From Planctomycetota bacterium (GTDB taxonomy: Bacteria; Planctomycetota; Planctomycetia; Pirellulales; Pirellulaceae): 29,820 bases of DNA. The notes under the pieces were generated by a model. That model worked only from the letters and a program-made list of their open reading frames with translations, was not told where the DNA came from and searched no databases. How positions within the stretch are numbered: the stretch's first letter is position 1; each line of letters starts with the position of its first letter. A program made the translations under genes and the position numbers. The stretch covers positions 1 through 29,820 of the forward strand of contig JAJDEH010000275.1 in the NCBI GenBank assembly GCA_029259935.1, written 5' to 3'. Below are positions 3,197-26,373 of the stretch, piece after piece.

Positions 3197-3748
3197 CTAC
3201 ATTTCAGTTTGGTTTATTTTCGGCAGCCGGAGTTTGAGGTGATCGAGGAGAATCTGTTGGTGGTCGGTTGGCTTGGAGAGGCAACGTTTGCGAATGTCGA
3301 TGCCGCTACGAGTTGGCATAATGACGTCGAGCATTCTTAGCTCCGCCAACTCATCCAGAACTCGCCGTGGCTCGCTACCAAGACCTGCCCGATCACACAT
3401 CTGGCCAAGCGTCTTCCATAACACGTAAGCCAGAAAACAGACGAAGATGTGAGCCAAAACGCGATCCTCCTTCTGATGCCAAATCGGACGGATCTTGAGT
3501 TCTCTCTTGTGAATGCGAAAGGCGGCTTCCGCCTCGGTCAGTTGGATGTACGCCTTCCACAACTCTTCATCACTCCAGTCCGTTACATTGCTGCGAAGCA
3601 AGTAACAGCCCGCACTCAACGTCGCCCAGTCGCGAGCCGCTTCAACTTTCTTCCACGCAATGCGAGCATGGCCATCTTTGGATTTCTTGACGGTCACCTC
3701 GAACAACCTGGCCGCCCGCGTATTCTTGCCCAGCAGTCGACGGCACCA
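3197..3748 (-). pseudogene. 3' remnant of an IS1634-type transposase
   Basis: About 184 codons remain of a family whose members are usually around 500 residues or more. The visible part is the C-terminal end of the DDE transposase: 'RRLLGKNTRAARLFEV', then 'GCYLLRSNVTDWSDEELW', 'YIQLTEAEAAFRIHKREL', 'RPIWHQKEDRVLAHIFVCF' and 'LAYVLWKTLGQ'. The segment YIQLTEAE.AFR holds the glutamate of the DDE triad in this family. The frame is open upstream of the first start-like codon (TTG at 3706), and homology-like sequence continues to about 3748, after which the isomerase stop codon lies only about 22 bp away. The first DDE aspartates and the N-terminal half are missing, so the element cannot be active by itself. 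Confidence 0.85.
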
Positions 3749-4745: not shown

Positions 4746-4948
4746 GAGTCTGCTTCGCCTGAAAGGTTGGGTGAACGCGAGAGTGGGGAAAACAGCGATT
4801 GTAATCAACGGACGGTGAGCGGGGCAAATCCATGAGACCTGTCAGTTCGTTTGTAAGAGCCGTGTCGCCGCGCGGCAAGATGCTGCCAAATGGCAACTTC
4901 TGGTTCTGACAAATCTCGTCCCTCGGTGTATCTGTGAGCTATGTTTGT

Positions 4949-4961
4949 CCAGACGGTCTGG
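4949..4961. promoter_or_regulatory. Perfect 6-1-6 palindrome, candidate operator
   Basis: CCAGAC-G-GTCTGG is a perfect inverted repeat in the 282-bp divergent space between the isomerase start (4745, -) and tadA (5028, +). It is 66 bp upstream of the tadA start codon. The position and symmetry fit a dimeric regulator site, but short palindromes occur by chance and no regulator gene is adjacent. Confidence 0.25.
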
Positions 4962-5027
4962 TAGGAAAAACCGGAAAACTCCCCAGACAACACGATTTCC
5001 CCTCCTTCGACGAAGATACCAAAATCG

Positions 5028-6347
5028 ATGAAAACAATGCCGCAAATCCGTTCGCCGGAAGCGAGTAAGCAACAGGAATTCGAGAACCTGAAGCGGAAAA
5101 TTCACGGCAAGCTCGTTGACAAATTGGACCTGACCAAGGTCGGCGAACTGGAAGGCGACGTCTTGCGGCGCGAGATTCGCTTGGTCGTCGAGCATTTGTG
5201 CGACACCGAAGAGACGTATCTCAACCGCAACGAACGCGACCGGCTGATCGAGGAAGTGCTGGACGAGACGTTCGGTTTGGGACCGCTGGAGTTGCTGCTC
5301 AAAGATCCCACGATCAGCGATATCTTGATCAACGGCCCCAAGAGCATCTACTGCGAACGTCGCGGAAAGATGGAAAAGACGAACGTCGAGTTTCGCGACA
5401 ACAACCACCTGTTGCAGATCATCGACCGCATTGTCTCCAAGGTGGGGCGGCGTGTTGATGAAGTCTGTCCCATGGTCGATGCCCGTTTGGCCGATGGCTC
5501 GCGTGTGAACGCGATCATTCCGCCGTTGGCACTAGACGGGGCGGCGGTTTCGATTCGGCGCTTCGGTGCCAACCCGCTCAAGCTAGAAGATCTGCTCAAC
5601 TACAAAGCCTTCACGCCCGAAATGGTGATGCTGTTGGAAGGGGCGATGAAGGCCCGGCTCAACGTCGTCATTTCCGGCGGTACCGGTTCGGGAAAAACCA
5701 CGCTGTTGAACACGCTTTCGAGCTTCATCTCGAACAAAGACCGCATTGTGACCATCGAGGACGCGGCGGAACTTCAATTACAACAAGATCACGTCGTCCG
5801 CCTGGAAACCCGTCCTCCCAACATCGAAGGCAAGGGTGCCATCACGGCGACCGACCTGGTCAAAAACGCCCTGCGTATGCGGCCCGAACGGATCATCATC
5901 GGCGAGTGCCGTGGGGCTGAAACACTGGACATGCTGCAAGCGATGAATACGGGCCACGATGGATCGCTCACCACGACGCATGCCAACTCGCCCCGCGACG
6001 CCATTGCCCGTATCGAGACCATGATCATGATGTCCGGGTTTGAATTGCCGATCAAAGCGATGCGTCAACAGATATCCAGCGCGGTACACCTAATTGTTCA
6101 AGCCAACCGCTTACAAGGCGGACCGCGAAAAGTCACGCACGTCACCGAAGTCGTCGGCATGGAGCAAGACACGGTGATCATGCAGGACATTTATCTTTAT
6201 GAGCAGGACGGGATCGATGAAAACGGCCGTGCGAAAGGCCGTTTCATGGCGACCGGCGTGCGGCCAACGTTCATGGACCATATGGAGTCCGCCGGCGTAC
6301 GGTTGCCCGCGAGCGCTTTCCGGCAACGGGTCATGATGGTGGACTAG
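5028..6347 (+). CDS. tadA: Tad/Flp pilus assembly ATPase TadA (CpaF family)
   Basis: The product is 439 aa, the usual size for CpaF/TadA. It is a cytoplasmic secretion ATPase that drives assembly or retraction of Flp-type pili by ATP hydrolysis, working against the TadB/TadC inner-membrane proteins. Visible motifs are the N-terminal domain with '[12 protein letters not shown]' (about 93-104), Walker A GGTGSGKT (217-224), an Asp box '[10 protein letters not shown]' (242-251), Walker B 'RIIIGECRG' (288-296) and a His box '[13 protein letters not shown]' (309-321). All are intact. Start ATG at 5028 lacks a strong Shine-Dalgarno; an in-frame ATG at 5037 is an alternative. tadB follows after 57 bp, so co-transcription is likely. 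Confidence 0.96.
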
Positions 6348-7378: not shown

Positions 7379-8356
7379 GTGGTCGCACTATTTGCCGAAG
7401 GTTTCAGCATCGTCACTATCCTTCCCTATGCGGCTTTTGGGCTCTTTGCCGCCATGGCTTGGTTGGTGCTGGAGTGGTTCTCGTCGCGCAAATCGCGCAG
7501 CGATGAACGATTGGAAGAAATACGTGATCCCGCGGCGCGTGCCCGTCGCGAAGACGGCCGGTCAGGCGCCGCCGATACCATGACTTCCCTTTTGGAAAGG
7601 GCGACGCCCGCGCTGGCGAAACCGCTACGGCCCAAGACCGAGAAGGAAGTAGGGAAACTGAAAGCCCGGCTCGCCCACGCGGGCTTCCGTCATGAAGGCT
7701 CTCAGACCATCTTCCTGGGGCTCAAGTTTTCGGGGCTGATGCTGGGACTTTTTCTGGGCGGAGGTTCCTTCCTGTTAGACCCCACTTTCACCATGGTCAG
7801 TCTTTCCAAGATCGTCGCCTTTGTCGGCGGTCTGTTTTACTTGCCGGACCTTTTGGTGTGGTTCATTGGAAGCAAGCGGAAAGAAGCAATTTTCCTGGGG
7901 CTTCCGGACGCCTTGGACCTGATGGTGGTTTGTGTGGAAGCCGGCCTGGGGCTTGATCAGGCTCTGCGAAAAGTAGCCGAGGAAATGAAGAAGTCGTATC
8001 GCGTGATCGCGGAAGAGTTCGGCATTTGCAACATGCAGTTGCAGATGGGCCGCCCCCGCTCGGAAGTGCTACACGAACTGGGCCAACGGAGTGGTGTGGA
8101 CGACCTGCGCGCGCTGGCGTCGATCATCATTCAGGCCGACAAGTTTGGATCGAGTATCGCGCAAGCCCTGCGGGTGCAAAGCGAATCGATGCGTACCCGG
8201 CGCCGGCAACTGGCCGAAGAGCGGGCGGCCAAAACCGCCGTCAAGCTGATCTTCCCTCTGGTTTTGTTCATCTTTCCTGGCATTTTCGTCATTCTCGTTG
8301 GCCCCGCTGCAATCACCATGGTCAACGAAATGCTGCCAGCCATGGGTAATCGCTAG
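7379..8356 (+). CDS. tadC: Tad inner-membrane platform protein TadC (type II secretion F domain)
   Basis: The product is 325 aa. It starts with GTG at 7379, only 2 bp after the tadB stop, which supports this start through coupling. Membrane segments are at about 12-30, 115-135, 140-160 and the C-terminus (about 290-320). The T2SSF core is 'LPDALDLMVVCVEAGLGLDQAL.KVAEEM..SYRVIAEEFGICNMQLQMGRPRSEVLHELGQRSGVDDLRALASIIIQADKFGSSIAQALRVQ', typical of TadC. By family knowledge it pairs with TadB as the inner-membrane platform. The next gene starts 137 bp downstream. Confidence 0.95.
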   Translation: MVALFAEGFSIVTILPYAAFGLFAAMAWLVLEWFSSRKSRSDERLEEIRDPAARARREDGRSGAADTMTSLLERATPALAKPLRPKTEKEVGKLKARLAHAGFRHEGSQTIFLGLKFSGLMLGLFLGGGSFLLDPTFTMVSLSKIVAFVGGLFYLPDLLVWFIGSKRKEAIFLGLPDALDLMVVCVEAGLGLDQALRKVAEEMKKSYRVIAEEFGICNMQLQMGRPRSEVLHELGQRSGVDDLRALASIIIQADKFGSSIAQALRVQSESMRTRRRQLAEERAAKTAVKLIFPLVLFIFPGIFVILVGPAAITMVNEMLPAMGNR

Positions 8357-8493
8357 CTGAATCCGGCGGATTCTTAATTCCATCCTCATTGGGACCGGAG
8401 ACGACCGCGCGCGCCGACCGATATCAAGGACGAGAGACAGACTTACCAGATGCCCGAAACCGGGCACTTCCGCCCAGCTTGGAGGCGAACCTC

Positions 8494-9066
8494 ATGCGGC
8501 GCGTTCATTTAATATTGTGTTTGACGTTTGTTCTGACGACGGTCGCGGGCACCTGCCGCGCGGAAGGCCCCAATTGGTGGCACAGCTTTTGGGGGCGAGT
8601 GAAGGTCGACTTCCATCGCAACAATGCCTTTCCCGAACCATTCCGGTATCACGACCGGCAGATTGTACGGACAGCCTACGATCCCTACATTGCTCGGGGT
8701 TGGCAAATTGAGAATACACTCTCTCATTTCGATTTCGATGCCGAATCAGGCGAACTAACGGCTGGCGGACAAGCCAAGATTCTATGGATTGCCACCCAAG
8801 CTCCGCCCCAGCGGCGCACCATTTTTGTATTGCGTGGGTCGACGTTGGATGCCACCGAAGGCCGAGTGGATCGCGTCCAACAAGCGGTCGCGTCGATGCT
8901 GCCGGCAAGTGCGATGCCCGCCGTCGTCCGCAGCGATATCGGCCCCGGTGGACTTAATGCCAAGGGCTACTACGTGAACGAAATGTGGACCAAGAATAAG
9001 GCCGCCGTGCCATCGCCCGTACTGTCAGCGGCTTCGGCCAGCAGCAGCGGTGGTGGTGGTAACTAG
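8494..9066 (+). CDS. Secreted protein of unknown function in the tad cluster
   Basis: The product is 190 aa from the ATG at 8494, chosen because GGAGG lies at 8481-8485 and the translation then opens with a clean signal peptide (MRRVHLILCLTFVLTTVAG, cleavage near CRA). The open frame begins upstream at 8389, but that extension is Arg-rich and not leader-like. The mature part has many aromatic residues ('NWWHSFWGRVKVDFHRNNAFPEPFRY'), then 'FDFDAESGELTAGGQAKI' and 'IFVLRG.TLDATEGRVDRVQQAV'. That order faintly recalls an OmpA/peptidoglycan-associated domain (FDFDS.eLt..G...L; V.GhtD..g...R...V), but the identity is weak. It ends in a Ser/Gly-rich tail. Its place between tadC and the TadD-like gene suggests an envelope accessory of the same system; this is inference. 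Confidence 0.8.
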   Translation: MRRVHLILCLTFVLTTVAGTCRAEGPNWWHSFWGRVKVDFHRNNAFPEPFRYHDRQIVRTAYDPYIARGWQIENTLSHFDFDAESGELTAGGQAKILWIATQAPPQRRTIFVLRGSTLDATEGRVDRVQQAVASMLPASAMPAVVRSDIGPGGLNAKGYYVNEMWTKNKAAVPSPVLSAASASSSGGGGN

Positions 9067-10317: not shown

Positions 10318-10331
10318 GGTTGAACGCAACC
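10318..10331. terminator. Short hairpin between convergent genes
   Basis: GGTTG-AACG-CAACC is a perfect 5-bp stem with a 4-base loop in the 17-bp space between the TPR lipoprotein stop (10313, +) and the MFS transporter stop (10331, -). It lacks a U-tract on either strand, so it is at best a weak bidirectional terminator or a stabilising 3' hairpin. Confidence 0.2.
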
Positions 10332-11872
10332 TAAGGCTTCATTGGCTTATTTGATTTCTCTTCTTGGCTGCTCTTGGTGTCGTCGTAGAAGACGAGCGCG
10401 AAAAGAACCATGATCACGGCTGCAAAGCCGGCGGGCAGCGTCCAAATCATTTTCCAATTGACCGGCTTCAGTAAGAGTTCGCGGCGCAACGACTGCAACT
10501 GAGCGACCTCGGCGGAACCAGATTGAACGGACTGAAGGGCGGATTCCACCAGATCCTTCTTGGTTAAGGCCGGATTGGCCAAAAACTCGTTCAGATCCTC
10601 GACATCTTCAAGTCGAGCCTTCTGCTCCTCTCCTGCCTTGCCGTCCTTGTCCTCCAAACGTTTGATTTCGTTGCCGACGGCGATTGCGGATTTAGAAAGC
10701 AGCTCAAAATCCGCCGGCTTGAAAGTCTCTTCCACTCTTCCAGCCGTCTGCGCTCCGATCAGCATTCCCATGCCAAGCGTACAGAAAACAAGCAGCCCTT
10801 GAGCTTGCGATCGGATCTTAGAGGGAGCTGCTTTGTCGGTGTAAATCTGGCCGGTTACAAAGAAGAAGTCATAGCAAACGCCGTGCAAGATGATTCCCGC
10901 CAGAATCATCCAAACAACAGTGTCGTCGGCACCCATGGCAAATAGGGCGTACCGGGCAACCCAAGCCAACATGCCGATAAACAGCATCCACTTAACTCCG
11001 AGGCGGGCGAAAAACAGAGGCATCACCAACATGAAAAAGATCTCGGACATTTGCCCAAACGACATCTTGAATGCGGGACTAGCGATTCCGGAATTAGTCA
11101 CGAAGACAGCCGCCAACTGATAGTAGAACGCCAATGGAATGCAGATCAGGAATGAGCAAATCATGAACGCGACGAAGGCTGGTCGCTTAAACATGACAAG
11201 TGCTTTCAGGCCCAATACCTCTGAAACGGTTACTTTCTCGCCTGCGGCGGGAGGGGGAGTATGAGGTAAAGTAAAGCTGTACAAGCCGAGAACGAACGAA
11301 GTGATCGCCGCCAAAAAGAAGAAGTTGATGGACGCGTCCCAGCCCTGCCAACTCAGCGTGATTCCCGCGACAATCCAGCCAATCGTTCCGAAGACTCGAA
11401 TCAGCGGGAACTGCTTCTCGGCATTCGTCATGTTTTGTAGCGCCAGCGAATTCGTCAGCGCCAACGTGGGAAAATAGCAAAGCATATGAGCAAAGAAGCA
11501 CAGATTGATGATCCATGCCGGTTGTGGATCCTCAGAAATTGCCAACTTGGGAAAGGTAAAGAGTTCTTGCCCAAACATCACGAACGGTTCGCGACTCGCG
11601 TCACCAAGCATCGCCGCGGCGCCTAACATGGCAACGCCGCCTAAGAGGTGCATCACCCCCAGTACCCGTTCGGTGGAAAAAAAACGGTCAGCGATCATTC
11701 CCACAAAAATCGGCGAGATCATGCCCGCGATGGGACCAACGGAATAGGTCCAGCCAATGTCCGTTCCATTAAAGCCAATATTCTGCAAGAAAGGGTACGC
11801 CGTCACGTACCAAACTCCCCACAGGAAGAATTGGAGAAACATCATCACGCTGAGTCGAAGAGGAATCATCAT
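10331..11872 (-). CDS. MFS transporter, nucleoside:H+ symporter type, with extra charged loop
   Basis: The product is 513 aa from the ATG at 11872; an in-frame TTG at 11902 would add ten residues, and neither start has a clear Shine-Dalgarno. It opens with 'MMIPLRLSVMMFLQFFLWGVWYVT', the N-terminal signature of the nucleoside:H+ symporter (NupG/XapB-like) branch of MFS, and has about 12 hydrophobic helices. 'VGMIADRFFSTERVL' is the loop 2-3 motif. Compared with the usual size of roughly 420 residues it is long: a polar, charged insertion of about 85 residues (about 380-470 in this numbering, 'NEIKRLEDKDGKAGEEQKA.') sits before the last helix, probably on the periplasmic side. Substrate (nucleosides or a sugar) is inferred from the family only. 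Confidence 0.88.
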   Translation of the reverse strand: MMIPLRLSVMMFLQFFLWGVWYVTAYPFLQNIGFNGTDIGWTYSVGPIAGMISPIFVGMIADRFFSTERVLGVMHLLGGVAMLGAAAMLGDASREPFVMFGQELFTFPKLAISEDPQPAWIINLCFFAHMLCYFPTLALTNSLALQNMTNAEKQFPLIRVFGTIGWIVAGITLSWQGWDASINFFFLAAITSFVLGLYSFTLPHTPPPAAGEKVTVSEVLGLKALVMFKRPAFVAFMICSFLICIPLAFYYQLAAVFVTNSGIASPAFKMSFGQMSEIFFMLVMPLFFARLGVKWMLFIGMLAWVARYALFAMGADDTVVWMILAGIILHGVCYDFFFVTGQIYTDKAAPSKIRSQAQGLLVFCTLGMGMLIGAQTAGRVEETFKPADFELLSKSAIAVGNEIKRLEDKDGKAGEEQKARLEDVEDLNEFLANPALTKKDLVESALQSVQSGSAEVAQLQSLRRELLLKPVNWKMIWTLPAGFAAVIMVLFALVFYDDTKSSQEEKSNKPMKP

Positions 11873-12056
11873 GGAATCGGGAACACCGTCTATTGCGGGC
11901 AAGGAAACAGGGAGCGGAACAAATCGTTGCTTGGCAGCATTCTAATAGCGAATTCGCGAGTACGAAAGCATCCTCGATGCTCTACGCGAAGATTTGTTTG
12001 GGCGAGAGATTGCGGCAGTTCAACAACTTACCGCTAACGGCACGGATTGGCCGTCA

Positions 12057-13385
12057 TTAGGTGATGGCCGCCGCGGACACTTCTTGCGAAGTCGCGGGAA
12101 CGGGCGAGAAAAAGCTTTGCAAGAACTGGGGCAGCGCGGCGAAGCAGAGATGCATGCGGCTGCCGATCACCTGATGCCGGCCGATCAGCTTCATCTCGCG
12201 ACCGCCCGCCACGCGCTCGCTTGCCGGCGAGATACTCCAGCTTGAATTCAGATAACCTCGCAGCCGAGTCGTGGAACTGCCCAGCCAGTTGTCGCGGACC
12301 ATCGTGATCTGAACCGGCTTCATCGGCCGAGGCTTCGCGTTGAACCGAGCGGCGATAGGCAGCACGCCCGTCATGCGATGCTCAGAGCCATTGGGCAACA
12401 CCATTTGTCGCGCGAGATAAGCCAATCCACCGCTTTCCGCATAGATTCGCCCACCACGCCGAACGTGCGATCTTAAAGACTCCTGCATGCAATAGTTGGC
12501 GGACAGTTGCGGGCCGTATCTTTCAACGCGGCCACATCCGATATATACGACGTCCGCTTCCGCGGGAACGCGATCACCACGAAGTGGGGAAAAGTCCTTG
12601 ATCTGCGCACCGCCCGCGCTGAGCAATTCAAGCGTGTCCGGAAAGTAGCGATGAAACGCCTCGTCGTAGGCAATGGCCACGGTCAGCGGTTGGTCGTTGT
12701 GGAATTTTTTGAACAGCCGATTCGACACGGCGGGAAAGGCTCGCTGCGCCGCAATCCGCATCAGCCGGTCGACATCCACCTGTCTTTCTAATCGAGAAGC
12801 CAAGTGTTGAAGTAAGGAACCGGGGACCTCCGTGACGTTGGGATGCCGAGCAACGACCGCGCGCAGTTCGGGCGGCAGACTGAGCCATCCGACCACCGGT
12901 GCGTTCCAGAGCGTTTCCAGATTCGTTTGCCAAAATCGAGCATCCTCCGCATCTCGAACGCCGTCCAAAAAAATGCCCGATAGGTTCTTTGGCCGGTCCG
13001 GCAAATTGCATGGATCCAAAATCGAGACATCGACGACCGGGATGGCCGGCAGGTCGAGCCATTCGCAAAGCGTTTCTAGGCAACCACCGCGCGTCGGGCC
13101 CGTGGGACCACAAAAGGTGCCCTTGATGATCGACAAATCACTGCAAGCCGCTCCGTGCGCCAGAATCTCCTGGCACACCTCTGGGTTCATCAACCAGCTA
13201 TCAAGATGGCGCTGCTTTCGACCGGTAACGTGAGACCCGTCGTAGGCGGCAAAATGTGCCTGAGAGTGAAAGGTCTGAACATGAACGCAGCGCTTCTTTA
13301 AGACCTCCATGAGCCCCCATTGTAATGGTCGCTCGTCCGCAGCGCATTGCACGGTACCAATTGCCAGACGTGGCAGGTGTGCCAT
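12057..13385 (-). CDS. CbiA/CobB-family protein with degenerate active sites
   Basis: The product is 442 aa, the normal length for cobyrinate a,c-diamide synthase, and both domains are recognisable. The N-terminal half keeps the 'RHLDSWLMNPEVCQEIL' motif (59-75), but the Walker A region reads 'LAIGTVQCAADERPLQWGL' (8-25), where the family has G....GKT, so the P-loop is lost. The C-terminal glutaminase domain keeps 'IAYDEAFHRYFPDTLELL' and 'FSPLRGDRVP', but the nucleophile motif AECGG is A-E-S-G-G with Ser318 (codon AGC), and the final HLHF-like motif is MHLCF (411-415). True enzymes amidate the corrin ring using ATP and glutamine; this one probably cannot. No cobalamin gene is near. It may be a paralogue with a new role; the frame is fully intact. 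Confidence 0.87.
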   Translation of the reverse strand: MAHLPRLAIGTVQCAADERPLQWGLMEVLKKRCVHVQTFHSQAHFAAYDGSHVTGRKQRHLDSWLMNPEVCQEILAHGAACSDLSIIKGTFCGPTGPTRGGCLETLCEWLDLPAIPVVDVSILDPCNLPDRPKNLSGIFLDGVRDAEDARFWQTNLETLWNAPVVGWLSLPPELRAVVARHPNVTEVPGSLLQHLASRLERQVDVDRLMRIAAQRAFPAVSNRLFKKFHNDQPLTVAIAYDEAFHRYFPDTLELLSAGGAQIKDFSPLRGDRVPAEADVVYIGCGRVERYGPQLSANYCMQESLRSHVRRGGRIYAESGGLAYLARQMVLPNGSEHRMTGVLPIAARFNAKPRPMKPVQITMVRDNWLGSSTTRLRGYLNSSWSISPASERVAGGREMKLIGRHQVIGSRMHLCFAALPQFLQSFFSPVPATSQEVSAAAIT

Positions 13386-14002: not shown

Positions 14003-14743
14003 ATGAGCCCTTTCCTGCAGACTGAGATCGAACCGGAACTTCTGGAGCTATTCCGCCGATGCGAGGAGCGGATAGGCTACACGTTCAACGACAAGAAGTG
14101 GTTGAGGTCGGCATTGACGCACGCTTCGGGCGCTGACCATCGTTTGGCATCCAATGAGCGTTTGGAGTTTTTGGGCGACGCGATTCTTGGCTTTGTGGTT
14201 TGCGACATGCTGTTCCTAAGTTACACCGACTACCTTGAGGGCGACCTCACCAAGGTAAAGTCGGTGGTCGTCAGTCGTCAAACCTGTGCGAAGATCAGCG
14301 ATTCGCTCGGCCTTACGGAGTTCTTGCTGGTTGGGAAGGGAATGGCGACCGTTCCGAATTCTCTTTTGGCCGATGTGTTTGAATCCCTGGTGGCGGCCAT
14401 CTATCAGGACGGCGGGCTCGACGAGGCGCGCAAGTTTATCACGACCTATATTTCACCCGAGATCGATCAGGCCGTCGCCGGCGATGGAGAAGGCAACTAC
14501 AAATCGCAGTTGCAACAAATGGCCCAAAAGGATTTCGGCACGACTCCCGTTTACATGTTGCTAGACGAAAAGGGCCCCGATCATAGCAAGTGTTTTAAGA
14601 TTGCGGCGATGATCGGCGACAGCCGTTACGAACCGGCTTGGGGAAAAAACAAGAAGGAAGCTGAACAACGCGCGGCCAGTAACGCGCTTTCTGAAATCAA
14701 TGGAGAAGACCTTCCGTTTCCTGATACCAGTGACGACGGATAA
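14003..14743 (+). CDS. rnc: Ribonuclease III
   Basis: The product is 246 aa. It cleaves double-stranded RNA and is needed for rRNA maturation. The endonuclease domain (about 12-155) has the signature 'NERLEFLGDAIL' with E52, E55 and D59, and 'LLADVFESLVAAIYQDGG' with D124 and E127, so all metal-binding and catalytic acids are present. A double-stranded RNA-binding domain follows (about 164-235: 'NYKSQLQQMAQKDFGTTPVY', '...AWGKNKKEAEQRAASNAL'). The acidic tail is unremarkable. The ATG at 14003 fits the family N-terminus. The PP-loop gene starts 11 bp after the stop, which suggests an operon of RNA-processing and RNA-modifying enzymes. Confidence 0.97.
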   Translation: MSPFLQTEIEPELLELFRRCEERIGYTFNDKKWLRSALTHASGADHRLASNERLEFLGDAILGFVVCDMLFLSYTDYLEGDLTKVKSVVVSRQTCAKISDSLGLTEFLLVGKGMATVPNSLLADVFESLVAAIYQDGGLDEARKFITTYISPEIDQAVAGDGEGNYKSQLQQMAQKDFGTTPVYMLLDEKGPDHSKCFKIAAMIGDSRYEPAWGKNKKEAEQRAASNALSEINGEDLPFPDTSDDG

Positions 14744-14754
14744 CCCGAATTGAC

Positions 14755-15753
14755 ATGCGAGCAAGATGTGTAGCTTTACTTTCGGGCGGCCTGGACAGCA
14801 TGCTGGCGATTCGCATCATGCAAGAGCAAGGCGTCGAAGTCGAGGCGTTGAATTTCAAAACCGTATTTACCTGCTGCCAAGACCTTTCCGCTCAAGCCGC
14901 GCGCGACCTGGATGTTCGCCTGACGGTCATCGGTCAGGAAGACGACTATCTAGATCTGGTGAAGTATCCACAGTTTGGCCGTGGCAAGGCGGCCAATCCC
15001 TGCGTCGATTGCCGCATCTATATGTTCGAAATGGCCAAGCGGTTCATGGAGCAATCCGATTCGCAATTCGTGGTCAGTGGCGAAGTGGTGGGCCAGCGGC
15101 CGATGAGCCAGAAACGTCGCGATCTCGACGTGATCTCCCGCCACAGCCATCTGGAAGATCTGCTGCTGCGGCCGCTTTCCGCGAAACTGCTGCCACCGAC
15201 GAAGCCCGAACGGGACGGACTCGTCGATCGAGAAAAGTTGTATGACTTTCAAGGGCGGACGCGAAAAGGGCTCATCGAACTAGCCAAACAGTTTGGGCTC
15301 AAGCACATCCCGACGCCCTCGACCGGTTGCTCACTCACCGAACCGCTCTTCTCCAAGAAAGTGATGGACTTGGTGGAAATCGAACCCGATAGCCAACGCT
15401 GGGATTTTGAACTGTTAAACGTGGGCCGGCACTTCCGCTTGGATGCGCGGACCAAAGTCGTGGTAGGGCGAAACCAACAAGACAATACGCAACTTGAGTA
15501 CATGCACAAGATGGAAGACGCCAGCAGCACCGCGCTGATTGAGCCGCACAGTTTTGTCGGACCCGCCGCGCTGCTGGTCGGCCCCATCACGGATAGCAGC
15601 ATCGAATTCGCCGCGGGGCTGATCGTTCGATACTCCAAGGATCTGATTCCTGGTCAAATTCGCGTTGCCGTGACAGATCGTGACGGAACACGGATTATCG
15701 ATGCTCGTGAATCCGAGGACTCGTTACAAGCAACAACCTTGGCGTCCGCCTAA
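14755..15753 (+). CDS. PP-loop ATPase, MnmA/ThiI-like thiouridylase family
   Basis: The product is 332 aa. The N-terminus carries the PP-loop S-G-G-L-D-S (10-15), which binds ATP for adenylation, within 'ALLSGGLDSMLAIRIMQEQG'. Cysteine motifs follow: C40-C41, C83-V-D-C86 ('NPCVDCRIYMF') and G-C-S-L-T (191-195). 'VVSGEVVGQRPMSQ' (107-119) and 'TPSTGCSLTEP' are typical of MnmA-like proteins found in anaerobes and planctomycetes that are annotated as tRNA thiouridylase or ThiI-like. The C-terminal 100 residues are a separate domain without a clear match ('VVVGRNQQDN', 'LVGPIT'), possibly the NFACT-R-like (DUF814-like) tail seen in such proteins. Exact RNA substrate is unknown. It is 11 bp behind rnc. 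Confidence 0.83.
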   Translation: MRARCVALLSGGLDSMLAIRIMQEQGVEVEALNFKTVFTCCQDLSAQAARDLDVRLTVIGQEDDYLDLVKYPQFGRGKAANPCVDCRIYMFEMAKRFMEQSDSQFVVSGEVVGQRPMSQKRRDLDVISRHSHLEDLLLRPLSAKLLPPTKPERDGLVDREKLYDFQGRTRKGLIELAKQFGLKHIPTPSTGCSLTEPLFSKKVMDLVEIEPDSQRWDFELLNVGRHFRLDARTKVVVGRNQQDNTQLEYMHKMEDASSTALIEPHSFVGPAALLVGPITDSSIEFAAGLIVRYSKDLIPGQIRVAVTDRDGTRIIDARESEDSLQATTLASA

Positions 15754-22500: not shown

Positions 22501-24198
22501 ATCGAGCCGCTCGTCCAGGACGATCCGGCGCGGGCGTTAGAGCTATCACTTAGTACCGAGGTACCGCTCATTTCGCAATATTTGATCCGACGAGCCGCCA
22601 ACGATATCAAGGCGATTGAGCAGGTGGCGGAACTGCTAACCACGGTCAAGTCCGTCGAACAGGAGTTGGCTATCTTGAACGAAATGCAACGGGCATTCGA
22701 GGGCCGTGTTGGCATTCCCATGCCGCAAGCATGGACCGCTGCCTATGAAAAACTAACCACCAGCGAAAGCGCCGAAGTACGCGACCGCGCCGACCAAGTG
22801 GCAATCATCTTGGGAGATAAGCGAATTTTCCCGCGCATGCGACAGCGACTGATGGATTCCAAGAGCGGATTGACCCAACGCCGCCAAGCCTTGGAGATAT
22901 TGGTGCGAGGTCGCGATCCCGACGCGGCTTCCGCGTTTCAGGCCGTCTTGAAGGACCCTGGTCTGCGCGCGGCGGCGATTCGCGCGCTGGCCGCGCTAGA
23001 CGATCCGGGTACCCCAACGGTCGTTCTTGCCGAATACCAGAAGCTCAACGAAAACGAACGACGCGATGCAATCGGAACTCTGGTCGCACGGCCACGCTAC
23101 GCACACGCGCTGCTCACGGCGATCGAGAGCAAGGTGGTTCCTCGCACCGACCTTCACGCTTTCCATATTCGTCAACTGTTGCGATTCGAAAACGAATCGC
23201 TGAACGACCGCATCAAACAGGTGTGGGGCGAGGTCCGTCCGTCGTCGCAAGACAAGCAGCAGTTGATCGCCCGCTATCGAACGACGCTCACCGCGAAGAA
23301 TTCCCATGTTCCAAACCTCAGCAATGGTCGGCGAATATTCTCAAAGGCTTGTGGTTCATGCCACGTGCTGTTCGGTGAGGGCGGCAAGGTCGGCCCTGAA
23401 TTGACGGGGTCCAATCGAGCCAACCTGGACTACCTTTTGGAAAACATCTTGGACCCTAGCGCGGTGCTTGGTAAAGACTATCGCATGTCCGTGTTGGCAC
23501 TGGCCGATGGGCGAATCGTTTCGGGACTTGTTCAAAAAGAGACCGAAAGCGCCCTTACCGTACGAACCATCAATGACACGGTCGTCATCGCCAAGGCCGA
23601 CATTGATGACCGCCAGCTTTCCGATAATTCACTCATGCCCGACGGGTTGCTCGACCAAATGAAGCCCGAGGAAACCCGCGATCTCGCGGCCTATCTGGCA
23701 AGTCCCACGCAGGTTGCCATCACGGGTCCGCCCGCGCCGATCGACGCCAAGACCGGTCAAGTCCCTGGAGCCATCGAAGGTGAATCGATGAAGATTCTGG
23801 AAAAAACGCACGGCAGCGCGGCCAGCCAAAAAATGGGCAATTTTACGGCGGATCGGTGGAGCCGAGGGGACCAACTATGGTGGACCGGTGCCAAACCAGG
23901 GTCGCGTCTCGTATTGGAGTTACCGGTTGAAAAAGACGGGCCGTACGGGATCGAGGTCGTCATGACGCGCGCCCGCGATTACGGCATCGTTCAATTGAAG
24001 CTTGACGGCGAGAAACTCGGCGACCCCGTTGACCTATTCAACGCACCGAACGTGGTAACGACTGGTGTCATCACGATTCTGGCCCGAAAACTGACGAAAG
24101 GAAAACACCGATTGGGCGTGGAAATTCTAGGAGCTAATCCGAACGCGGCGAAAGCCTTCATGTTTGGCTTGGACTATGTGCGGCTGACTCCTGAGTAG
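19558..24198 (+). CDS. Giant secreted multidomain protein: FG-GAP propeller, PVC dehydrogenase-like propeller, HEAT-like region, cytochrome c, C-terminal sandwich
   Basis: The product is 1546 aa from the ATG at 19558, where a signal peptide begins (MTRCLPLLVLFITLGSLV); an upstream in-frame ATG at 19513 would bury that leader. Domains: seven calcium-loop repeats of the FG-GAP/VCBS kind (about 52-395: 'DLNQDGHGD', 'DINGDSWLD', 'DLTGDGKPE', 'DVDGDGRMD', 'DVDGDGDND', 'DMDGDGLKD', 'DVNGDKLPD'); a membrane-bound-dehydrogenase-type propeller (about 441-821, opening 'TVPEGFRVQLAAGEPQI'); HEAT-like helical repeats (about 830-1230); a PVC-type heme domain with C1265-G-S-C1268-H1269 and 'NSLMPDGLLDQM'; and a beta-sandwich (about 1410-1546) ending 'MFGLDYVRLTPE'. 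By family knowledge it is a periplasmic or surface electron-transfer oxidase, perhaps for sugars; the substrate is unknown. Its 3' end overlaps the convergent gene by 41 bp. Confidence 0.93.
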   Translation: MTRCLPLLVLFITLGSLVDPHGSIGADDFSLLSFDKHVLSETFFGEGAAQGDLNQDGHGDVVSGPYWYAGPDFKKKSELDAVKPFDPKGYSDNFFTFVDDINGDSWLDVLVYGFPGKEAFWYENPGNEKNRAHWPRHLALDTVDNESPAWTDLTGDGKPEIVCSQGGFFGFASPDRGDPTQPWKFRRISRQAAGGRFTHALGVGDVDGDGRMDLLEKNGWWQQPKKLEGDPQWEFRPFQFAGPGGSQMYVYDVDGDGDNDVITGLAAHAWGLVWYEHKPAKDAPGGIGFEQHLILNPNDKPNEYGVAFSQLHAIELIDMDGDGLKDIVTGKRYWAHNGHDPGGNQPAVLYWFKLMRDGKGADNVRFVPIKIDDDSGVGTQVQVADVNGDKLPDIVVGNKKGTFVHLQQRQRVSKKEFDAAMPKKAKALQAGLPPAEAAKAMTVPEGFRVQLAAGEPQIHQPIAMAFDHRGRLWVAEGYTYPIRAPEGAGKDKIVILEDTDLDGTLDSRKVFIEGLNLVSGLEVGFGGVWVGAPPYLLFIPDEDGDDQPDAEPRVLLDGFGFQDTHETLNSFIWGPDGWLYGCHGVFTHSRVGKPGTPDAERTALNAGVWRYHPLRHEFDVFARGSSNPWGVDFNDRGQAFITACVIPHLFHVIQGARYRRQAGQHFNPHVYDDIKTIADHVHYIGNIRDHAWWGHEPIVPNDTSAAGGGHAHCGAMVYLGDNWPDEHRNHIFFNNIHGNRVNNDLLEREGSGYVGHHGKDLLLANDRWFRGINLRYGPDGSVYLIDWYDKNACHRRTPEIWDRTNGRIYRVVYGDTKPKKVDLSKLSNKELTALQSHKNDWYGRTARRILQQRGQDSNVHQMLSEVINSSESPPTRLKALWTLHVTDGFSEVDALSRLDDPDEYIRAWTIQLQLEDGEVSKTFLDRMKQLAVKDPSPVVRLYLASALQRLPNGERWPIAEALASHEEDSQDHNLPLMYWYGIEPLVQDDPARALELSLSTEVPLISQYLIRRAANDIKAIEQVAELLTTVKSVEQELAILNEMQRAFEGRVGIPMPQAWTAAYEKLTTSESAEVRDRADQVAIILGDKRIFPRMRQRLMDSKSGLTQRRQALEILVRGRDPDAASAFQAVLKDPGLRAAAIRALAALDDPGTPTVVLAEYQKLNENERRDAIGTLVARPRYAHALLTAIESKVVPRTDLHAFHIRQLLRFENESLNDRIKQVWGEVRPSSQDKQQLIARYRTTLTAKNSHVPNLSNGRRIFSKACGSCHVLFGEGGKVGPELTGSNRANLDYLLENILDPSAVLGKDYRMSVLALADGRIVSGLVQKETESALTVRTINDTVVIAKADIDDRQLSDNSLMPDGLLDQMKPEETRDLAAYLASPTQVAITGPPAPIDAKTGQVPGAIEGESMKILEKTHGSAASQKMGNFTADRWSRGDQLWWTGAKPGSRLVLELPVEKDGPYGIEVVMTRARDYGIVQLKLDGEKLGDPVDLFNAPNVVTTGVITILARKLTKGKHRLGVEILGANPNAAKAFMFGLDYVRLTPE

Positions 24199-25300
24199 TC
24201 CTCAAACTATCCGCTCCGGCCAGCCGCCGGGGCGTGCCAGAGACTAACGTCTTTTGCCAGTTGACCGCCATCATCACGCAGTTGATGCCTGATCCAATGC
24301 CAAGCATGGCCAAGTTGTCGCCAGGTTGCACGAATCCGCTTTCCAAACCGACCGCCATGGTGATTGGCAAGGCGACTGAGCCGGTATTGCCCAGCCATTC
24401 GACCGTCGTGTAATCCAGTTCCGTCGGCATGCCAAGTTCATCCAGCAGCAACTTGCGATGGGCCAGCCCCACTTGGTGGCAAAATGTTCTTTGGATGTCG
24501 TCGCCAGACCAACCAGTTCGCGAGAGAAAATCCTTGAATGTCTCCACGCCCGTAGCCACGCCTTCGTACATGAGGCGTTCCGAATCGGTTTCCATTAGCG
24601 GCTGCATACCGCTGCCGACGGCTTCGTCGCAGCCGCTGTGGCACAGGTCGTGAAACTCGGTGTTCGCGCGGGCGGCGACGGCCAGCAAACGATTGTTGGT
24701 GGTGGTGATATCCGAATGCGTGAGCAAAACGGCGCAACTGCCCGATCCGATCGTCAGCGAGGCGACCGCGGTCTTGATTTGCTTTCTGGTCAGAGACGTG
24801 TTTCGATTCAGTTCGTCAATGGTCGTTTCGACCAGTTGACGGCTGCCTTCACTGCCAACGACAAGCCCTGCTCGAATCTGTCCCAGCTCGATCATATTGG
24901 CGACCTGGATCATTCCATCCAGCAAACCCAAACATGCGTTGGAAAGGTCGTAGACAAGGCAATCGCTGGACAGCCCGAGGCGATAATGAACACCGCTGGC
25001 CGTGGCGGGCTCGAGAAAGTCGCGACAGACACTGCCATGCACGAGCGCGCCAATGTCACGGCGGTCGACTTCCGAGGCGTGGATCGCCCTTTCGCCGCTC
25101 TGGACGCTCATCTCGCTGGGCATCGCCCCGACTGGCCAGAATCGTCGTTCGCGAATCCCAGTCATCAGTTCTAGTCGTCCCGCAGGTAGGCGCAGGCGTT
25201 GGTAGAGCGGATCAAGCCGCTCTTCAATTTCCGTGGAGGTTACGATCTCGTCGGGCAGCGTATAGCCGAAAGATTCTAAACAGACGTTTTGATATTGCAT
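24158..25300 (-). CDS. OleA-type thiolase / 3-oxoacyl-ACP synthase III homologue
   Basis: The product is 380 aa. It belongs to the ketosynthase III-like thiolases, and the details favour OleA, the enzyme that joins two fatty acyl-CoAs head to head. The catalytic triad is present: C123 ('NACLGLLDG'), H275 ('CHQVGLAHR') and N305 ('WLGNTGS'). E97 in 'CRDFLEPATAS' corresponds to the glutamate of Xanthomonas OleA in 'SRDYLEPSTAS', a residue special to OleA. The opening 'YQNVCLESFGYTLPDEIVTS' and 'LMTGIRERRFW' also resemble OleA, and 'AMLGIGSGINCVM' is the C-terminal glycine loop. OleB, OleC and OleD are not in the window. Its C-terminus extends about 30 residues beyond the usual end and overlaps the 3' end of the giant cytochrome gene on the other strand. 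Confidence 0.88.
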   Translation of the reverse strand: MQYQNVCLESFGYTLPDEIVTSTEIEERLDPLYQRLRLPAGRLELMTGIRERRFWPVGAMPSEMSVQSGERAIHASEVDRRDIGALVHGSVCRDFLEPATASGVHYRLGLSSDCLVYDLSNACLGLLDGMIQVANMIELGQIRAGLVVGSEGSRQLVETTIDELNRNTSLTRKQIKTAVASLTIGSGSCAVLLTHSDITTTNNRLLAVAARANTEFHDLCHSGCDEAVGSGMQPLMETDSERLMYEGVATGVETFKDFLSRTGWSGDDIQRTFCHQVGLAHRKLLLDELGMPTELDYTTVEWLGNTGSVALPITMAVGLESGFVQPGDNLAMLGIGSGINCVMMAVNWQKTLVSGTPRRLAGADSLRTTQESAAHSPSQT

Positions 25301-25458: not shown

Positions 25459-26310
25459 TCAGCGATTTGAATCAAACAACAGGCCGATCGCCTGGTCCTG
25501 GCTCCGTAAGCCGATGCCAATCGCTGCAAGCGTTGTTTTCATCTTAAACTGCGATCGTATGAGGCTGACCGTTTCGTTGGCAAAATCGGTATCGGCGATC
25601 AAGCTCATCGTTCGGCTGGTGAGTTCCGCGCCCTTGGCGGCTGCCACCGCGCTGGATTCGACAATGGTTCGCTGAAACGCGCCGATCGCGCCCCGCGCTG
25701 TTGACACGTCACTTTGTGCCGCGTCGACGATTTCTAGCGACAATTCCAAGTCTCCGGAATCGAGGCTGGCAACGCCGCCGCTTCCCAATTCTCTCAGCGC
25801 TTGAGTATCGGTTCCAATCGCGGAACTGCTGACTCGGGGAAGCGTTAGAGAGTCCGTCCCTTCGGCACCGACGCGAATGGTCGTCGTGCCATTGAACAGG
25901 TTCAGTCCGAGGATTTCCGTCGTACCGCCAATACGATCCAGCGAGTCGAGCGCTGCGTCAATTTCAAGCTGCAAGGCCGCTCTCTCCTCACTGGAAGTCG
26001 TCGAACTGGCCGCTGTCACCACGTTGCCACGAATTTGATTCAGCAAGGGGTTCACTTGCGACAGGGCACTGTCGGCTAGGTTCGTAAGTGCTTGCGCCCG
26101 ATTGGCCGCGGCGAACTGCGCATCGCGTTCATTCAACTCGCGGCGCAAAGCTTCCACCGCCACCAACCCGGCCGGATCGTCTTTGGCTCGCGGAATGCGG
26201 GTCTGAGTTGCCAGCCGCAAACCAGCGGTGACAAAGTCCTGAGTGGCCTGGCGCAACTGTTCTTGGGCGCTCAAGTTGAAACTTGCGAACCCGCCCCCGA
26301 CACGCAGCAT
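25459..26310 (-). CDS. Short, stand-alone flagellin-like protein
   Basis: The product is 283 aa from the ATG at 26310, which has GAGG six bases upstream; a longer in-frame start at 26358 adds residues that do not fit flagellins. The N-terminal D0/D1 region (about 12-110) matches flagellin: 'LSAQEQLRQATQDFVTAGLRLATQTRIPRAKDDPAGL' corresponds to the family's '..lsSGlRINsAkDDaAGLaI', followed by 'LTNLADSALSQVNPLLNQIR'. The C-terminal region ('GAFQRTIVESSAVAAAKGAELTSRTMSLIADTDFANETVSLIRSQFKMKT...') matches the C-terminal D1/D0 helix, ending 'QDQAIGLLFDSNR'. There is only a small central domain. No chaperone, hook or export gene is adjacent, so it may be a minor flagellin, a hook-filament junction-like protein, or a re-used relative. 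Confidence 0.87.
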   Translation of the reverse strand: MLRVGGGFASFNLSAQEQLRQATQDFVTAGLRLATQTRIPRAKDDPAGLVAVEALRRELNERDAQFAAANRAQALTNLADSALSQVNPLLNQIRGNVVTAASSTTSSEERAALQLEIDAALDSLDRIGGTTEILGLNLFNGTTTIRVGAEGTDSLTLPRVSSSAIGTDTQALRELGSGGVASLDSGDLELSLEIVDAAQSDVSTARGAIGAFQRTIVESSAVAAAKGAELTSRTMSLIADTDFANETVSLIRSQFKMKTTLAAIGIGLRSQDQAIGLLFDSNR

Positions 26311-26373
26311 AGATAACCTCGAATGAGATGTAAGATGAGCCGAACGGCCGTTTCCCATCTCAAAGATAGGTTA

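Follow-up and report, generated by a model that had tools for sequence, protein, structure and literature searches.

The 29,820-nucleotide stretch of planctomycete DNA analysed here (contig JAJDEH010000275.1 from a member of the Pirellulaceae; hereafter the window) encodes on its minus strand, at positions 12057 to 13385, a homologue of the cobalamin (B12) synthesis enzyme CobB/CbiA that belongs to an unnamed planctomycete family. The sequences make clear that this family is a selected CobB offshoot stripped of its amidation residues: none of the 172 aligned members has the P-loop Lys, the initial Asp of the GPDYID motif or the glutaminase His, while 169 lack the second Asp and 153 the glutaminase Cys. 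Given these losses, neither ATP use in the manner of CobB nor glutamine hydrolysis would be expected of the protein, and because selection retains the gene mostly in genomes in which the B12 synthesis genes searched for are missing, the family probably performs a different job than B12 synthesis. Our preferred reading, to which we give slightly less than an even chance, is a pseudoenzyme that no longer amidates and holds a small ligand in its former glutaminase pocket, acting as a sensor, carrier or partner. A clade of CobB homologues apparently dead in both halves yet selected, mostly where CobB and CobQ were not found, offers a clean case for asking what role an amidotransferase fold can play after its chemistry is lost.

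Architecture and descent

The frame is open throughout, from ATG to stop, and encodes 442 amino acids, in agreement with the full-length, intact gene described in a sequence-only reading of the window; the start Met is conserved in 94% of the aligned family members. The motifs listed in that reading (RHLDSWLM at residues 59-66, YDEAFHRYFPD, FSPLR, GGRIYAESGGLAYL and MHLCF) are all found in the protein. Homology to CobB is, at the level of sequence, far beyond chance, since the Pfam GATase_3 domain (PF07685) is matched at 67.2 bits against a gathering cut-off of 27 and the NCBIfam CobB model (NF002204) at E 2e-48 over residues 22-414, with 165.3 bits, below its curated cut-off of 254. Pfam matches at E up to 1 comprised GATase_3 and one match below cut-off, with no CbiA domain among them. 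Both folds are retained in a structure model of the protein (predicted local distance difference test, 93.9), and a P-loop-type domain joined to a class I glutamine amidotransferase (GATase) domain is the two-domain architecture of CobB/CbiA. Searches of the PDB returned six weak matches by sequence with P0001 (best E 0.16), none up to E 0.01 with a canonical-type planctomycete CobB, and seven with the family profile, of which the best was GatD (E 0.078). The gene and its parts are as follows.

12057..13385, minus strand: CobB/CbiA-like pseudoenzyme, complete frame, 442 amino acids
12744..13382, minus strand: N-terminal domain (residues 2-214), dethiobiotin-synthetase/MinD-like fold, the former ATP/synthetase half
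13329..13358, minus strand: site of the lost P-loop (residues 10-19); Lys in 26/26 canonical-type and 0/172 family sequences
13188..13211, minus strand: RHLDSWLM, strongly conserved N-domain motif (residues 59-66); R59, D62 and W64 in 172/172
12096..12701, minus strand: C-terminal domain (residues 229-430), class I GATase fold
12531..12539, minus strand: Gly-Cys-Gly (residues 283-285), with Cys284 at the oxyanion-hole Gly; Cys in 162/172 family, Gly in 26/26 canonical-type sequences
12426..12440, minus strand: AESGG (residues 316-320), former nucleophile elbow; codon 318 is AGC, Ser (12432-12434)
12285..12287, minus strand: Trp367 codon; Trp in 172/172 family sequences, mixed in the canonical type, mostly Leu, Phe or Pro
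12237..12260, minus strand: RGYLNSSW (residues 376-383), with Tyr378 in place of the glutaminase His and a new Trp383

Family sampling and phylogeny

The planctomycete CobB-like pseudoenzyme family is a definition made in this analysis. A protein search gave 304 matches among 7994 scored candidates, the best being 52% identical to the window protein, and the 120 matches listed were used for the family alignment. A scan of genome contigs, which relied on two family motifs and would miss members without them, gave 51 loci, 51/51 of them under planctomycete titles (Pirellulales, Thermogutta/Thermoguttaceae and Isosphaeraceae among others). Residue counts set 26 canonical-type planctomycete relatives against 172 family sequences, of which 116 are search matches (the window protein among them) and 56 come from loci; 166 of the family rows remain at 95% identity. 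Dropped beforehand were the fragments P0091, P0098, P0100 and P0107, L048 (in two frames), L041 and L030 (contig end), L097 (the same stretch as L034), the partial L049-L051 and L072, the duplicates L054-L061, and the partial canonical sequences L053, L070 and L071.

In the order of genome G001, 66 of 296 genomes matched, and 58 of these carry the family at a best E of 1e-60 or better, a threshold of our own choice. The remaining eight have weaker matches only, and one genome (G330) has a match of either kind; at the motif positions, the weaker matches in these nine genomes are all of canonical type, that of G334 lying in two pieces. A phylum-wide draw gave matches in 49 of 292 genomes, four of them above 370 bits.

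In a quick maximum-likelihood tree built from 69 family and 26 canonical-type rows (95 in all) and rooted on the latter, the family forms one side of a branch with full support (100 in the Shimodaira-Hasegawa-like approximate likelihood ratio test), and a group of eight rows, with Isosphaeraceae-type titles among them, separates first from the other 61. The window protein falls in this clade and shares its Tyr378, Trp367 and RxLDxW as well as the absence of the P-loop Lys. No title or abstract among the literature matches listed concerns a planctomycete CobB-like family. PMC3444138 describes a planctomycete-specific insert of 10-11 amino acids in a 'cobyrinic acid ac-diamide synthase', for which this family, canonical CobB or a ParA-type ATPase would be candidates.

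Loss and replacement of catalytic residues

The ATP half of the protein bears out the lost P-loop of the sequence-only reading: the aligned stretch reads GTVQCAADER and holds no Walker A motif, consistent with the Lys counts given above. Each Asp of the GPDYID pair is present in 26/26 canonical-type sequences, against 0/172 (first) and 3/172 (second) in the family, and the window protein has His44 and Ala47 at these positions. The Glu of the EG motif is retained in 130/172 members and is Lys88 in the window protein.

Beyond what the sequence-only reading had noticed, the glutaminase His has become Tyr378 and the oxyanion-hole Gly Cys284. The His position is Tyr in 172/172 family members and His in 25 of the 26 canonical-type relatives (Ile in one), whereas position 318 is mixed within the family (Gly 138, Cys 19, Ser 11, Ala 3, Val 1), with at least 12 changes needed on the tree; the same position holds Cys in 25 canonical-type relatives and Ser in one. 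From these counts, the loss of the His is fixed across the aligned family and the Cys position variable. The reported replacement of the glutaminase Cys by Ser is thus correct as to the residue in the window but not as to its origin: Ser318 groups with P0002 (support 99) and P0003 (support 90), both of which have Gly, and since these nearest relatives and most family members have Gly, the aligned sequences mark it as a late, incidental change from Gly and not a Cys-to-Ser swap. A homologue with both an intact P-loop and the Cys, which that reading had named as grounds for doubt, did not appear among the 172; all 19 members with Cys318 have Tyr378 and no P-loop Lys.

Residues kept from the ancestor include R59, D62, W64 and D241 (172/172 each) and Glu317 (167/172), while Trp383 (168/172, against 1/26 in the canonical type), Cys299 (162/172) and Arg313 (168/172) are new and near-invariant. 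The Cys284 position aligns with Gly60 of GatD in the profile match, and PMC5871853 names this Gly as the oxyanion hole. Ten of the 172 have Gly or Ser there, and all ten retain Tyr378. An obligate Cys284-Cys299 pair, as a disulfide or metal site, was considered and rejected: ten members lost one Cys, ten others the other, and none both.

A different combination was observed in another CobB homologue (L093; G050:C72, 2380-3762, plus strand), which exceeds the curated cut-off (331 bits) and retains the P-loop Lys, but in which Ser stands at the glutaminase Cys position and Ile at the His position. Its residues may mark an independent loss of glutaminase in a protein whose ATP site persists, possibly a CobB that uses ammonia.

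Selection and genomic distribution

The ratio of nonsynonymous to synonymous substitution rates (dN/dS) was 0.110-0.202 for the ten closest family pairs and 0.11-0.38 across the 25 pairs listed, values that are rough because dS is high (0.8 and up). On the low ratios of the ten closest pairs, the aligned genes are under purifying selection and show no decay, and the decay in close relatives that the sequence-only reading had raised as an objection was not seen. Together with the family-wide loss of residues, these ratios agree with its proposal of a repurposed, non-amidating paralogue that would lack both chemistries. Two interruptions were observed: the family gene of L048 (genome G035, about 4755-6072) is split into two open frames of 376 and 226 amino acids, through either a frameshift or a misassembly, and the match listed for G030 has a TAA within the matched stretch.

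A canonical CobB elsewhere in the same genome, a check proposed in the earlier reading, is mostly missing. CobB exceeded its cut-off in 2 of 35 family genomes, CobQ in the same two, and neither did so in the other 33; the 35 were picked from the 51 loci and are mostly metagenome drafts of unstated completeness, but the joint absence of both genes in 33 genomes is hard to put down to gaps. Among genomes of the order that lack the family, the first 20 listed were searched as well, and CobB exceeded its cut-off in none of them.

In folds of this type the active sites are lined by the loops at the C-terminal ends of the core strands, and both domains of canonical-type CobB conserve these loops better than those at the opposite strand ends. 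The family shows the same pattern in its GATase domain (3.26 vs 2.49 bits, p 0.010; 3.19 vs 2.50 bits, p 0.019, with the 56 loci alone) but not in its ATP domain (1.97 vs 2.44 bits; 1.86 vs 2.30 bits with the loci alone). The alignment thus indicates that the loops around the former ATP site lost constraint and those of the former glutaminase site did not.

Possible functions

Under the ligand-binding reading, the planctomycete family would have split once from CobB/CbiA, with both domains presumably still folding. The N domain would serve as a scaffold or transmitter, and the working site would be the former glutaminase pocket, rebuilt with Cys284, Trp367, Tyr378 and Trp383. This pocket may hold a small ligand without hydrolysing it, perhaps an amino-acid-like one, as the ancestral pocket bound glutamine, and the protein would act as a sensor, carrier or partner. 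We place the working site there because of the loop conservation split by domain and the new invariant residues of the C domain, and in part by inference.

Several points weigh against this reading. RHLDSWLM lies in the N domain and equals the best-conserved parts of the C domain in its conservation, which a pocket-centred function leaves unexplained, and Cys284 is missing in 10/172 members. The strand-tip conservation test pooled over both domains gave p 0.35, the split by domain having been made afterwards. The conserved pocket loops may instead serve folding, interdomain or protein contact; the pocket-lining role of Trp367 and Trp383 is putative, the predicted loss of activity follows from missing residues, and the ligand and partner are hypothetical.

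A rather unlikely but serious alternative is a ligand-free scaffold or regulatory partner acting by way of a protein interface, for which the conserved C-domain face would be the docking surface. The loss of residues at both catalytic sites would agree with it, and the recurrence of RNase III, HtrA protease and MgtE genes beside part of the family would suit a fixed partner. However, the constrained C-domain loops are the former active-site loops (a cavity, judged from the fold, as opposed to a surface patch), and HtrA at -1 (20/57 loci) and MgtE at +1 (13/57) are each confined to a minority of loci, neither being beside the gene in the window.

It is also unlikely, in our estimate, that the glutaminase pocket of a class I amidotransferase became a new functional site, by loss of the elbow Cys, gain of Cys284 and change of the His to an invariant Tyr, in a planctomycete receptor or enzyme; we know of no description of a receptor or enzyme of this kind for the fold. 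A new enzyme in the rebuilt pocket, with for example Cys284 or Tyr378 as catalytic residue, we consider distinctly unlikely. The near-invariance of Cys284 at the oxyanion-hole place, near the old nucleophile, and of Tyr378 and Trp367 (172/172) is what such an enzyme would be expected to show, but Cys284 is replaced by Gly or Ser in ten members that keep Tyr378, and by eye the near-invariant residues gained in the C domain include no new His/Asp/Glu set, Glu317 being a retained one.

Binding of a corrinoid or tetrapyrrole, as the sequence-only reading had suggested, appears improbable. The CobB substrate site would survive in a protein for B12 sensing, storage or carriage, for which descent from CobB, RxLDxW in 172/172 members and B12-binding domains in 19/20 family genomes searched (of the 35) could be cited; 20/20 order genomes without the family likewise encode such domains. 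Methyltransferase corrinoid proteins (TIGR02370, at a best E of 1e-45 or better, our own choice to exclude MetH) occur in 12/58 family and 64/238 other genomes of the order (p 0.40). They occur in 7/9 genomes with canonical-type relatives, a figure looked at post hoc, and the test is therefore able to see an expected link. A search for cobalamin riboswitches in 14 sources, namely the window plus 13 of the 51 loci, turned up two tRNAs and no riboswitch, and none of the recurrent neighbours identified is a cob gene. The corrin substrate site should moreover adjoin the ATP-side loops, by an inferred placing, and these are the loops that lost constraint. The hypothesis is thus unsupported apart from descent from CobB and the retained RxLDxW. 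An apparent enrichment of short, strong B12-binding proteins in family genomes (15/20 vs 3/20, p 0.0003), counted by eye from match tables after seeing them, vanished on the 296 genomes of the order; by eye, 17 such short frames divide into methyltransferase corrinoid proteins and mutase subunits, which are unrelated to each other.

A decaying relic or sequencing artefact, which the interruptions in G035 and G030 might suggest, has a negligible chance in view of the low dN/dS of the ten closest pairs and of losses and new invariant residues common to 172 sequences from many assemblies.

Comparison with known systems

CobB/CbiA, the cobyrinic (hydrogenobyrinic) acid a,c-diamide synthase, has the same domain order over nearly the whole length and shares the LD of RxLDxW, DxAF, SP and several Gly positions; the family differs in lacking the P-loop and the GPDYID Asp pair, in having the glutaminase Cys in 19/172 members and the His in none, and in its distribution, most of the family genomes searched having neither CobB nor CobQ above its cut-off. 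The reactions of CobB and CfbB follow PMC7242693. The model of CfbB, the Ni-sirohydrochlorin a,c-diamide synthase, matches residues 21-378 of the window protein at 152.7 bits, below its cut-off of 560. In GatD, of the lipid II amidotransferase MurT/GatD, Cys94 and the oxyanion Gly60 align with residue 318 and Cys284 (a weak match, E 0.08), while His189 corresponds to Tyr378 solely via canonical CobB; unlike GatD, the window protein also carries a dethiobiotin-synthetase-like N domain in the same chain. Dethiobiotin synthetase BioD has no amidotransferase domain, and the window protein differs from it in having no P-loop. Some amidotransferase-like domains, such as that of human CPS1, have lost their Cys and are kept by selection although glutaminase-dead, next to an active synthetase half. 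The family resembles them in retaining a domain predicted to be glutaminase-dead, with the difference that its synthetase residues are gone too.

Gene neighbourhood

Neighbours were counted over 57 family loci, window included; these counts are lower bounds because of contig ends, and the name of each neighbour cluster comes from one or two of its members. In the window, neighbours of the family gene include the following.

14003..14743, plus strand: RNase III gene (Pfam), divergent neighbour, 617 bp from the family gene
14755..15753, plus strand: ThiI-like PP-loop protein with an NFACT-R_2 RNA-binding domain (Pfam), adjoining RNase III
10331..11902, minus strand: nucleoside:H+ symporter-like major facilitator superfamily gene, downstream; clusters with no other gene of the 57 loci

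A divergent RNase III gene lies at most two genes upstream in 25/57 loci, the ThiI-like/NFACT-R_2 cluster is near the family gene in 13/57, and PdxJ is near it in 13/57. A short conserved protein of about 110-190 amino acids also recurs near the family gene in 12/57 loci (L002, 3876-4280, minus strand, and 11 others), two representatives of which gave no Pfam match. Scans of 16 representatives of recurrent neighbours from other loci identified no cob gene, and, in line with the earlier remark that no cobalamin gene is nearby, no cobalamin-synthesis family was matched when 17 of the 21 other called window genes were compared with Pfam, NCBIfam or both, a set made up of all but those at 1-342, 364-1041, 7379-8356 and 8389-9066.

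Elsewhere in the window, a 169-amino-acid frame (3197-3706, minus strand) resembles by eye the C-terminal part of a transposase, with no Pfam match at E 0.001. A flagellin-like gene (25459-26358, minus strand) matches Flagellin_N at 66.9 bits, with no further flagellar family among the 17 genes scanned. The gene at 24158-25300 (minus strand) encodes a PRK09258-type ketosynthase III (446 bits, cut-off 285), for which an OleA-type role would be a candidate.
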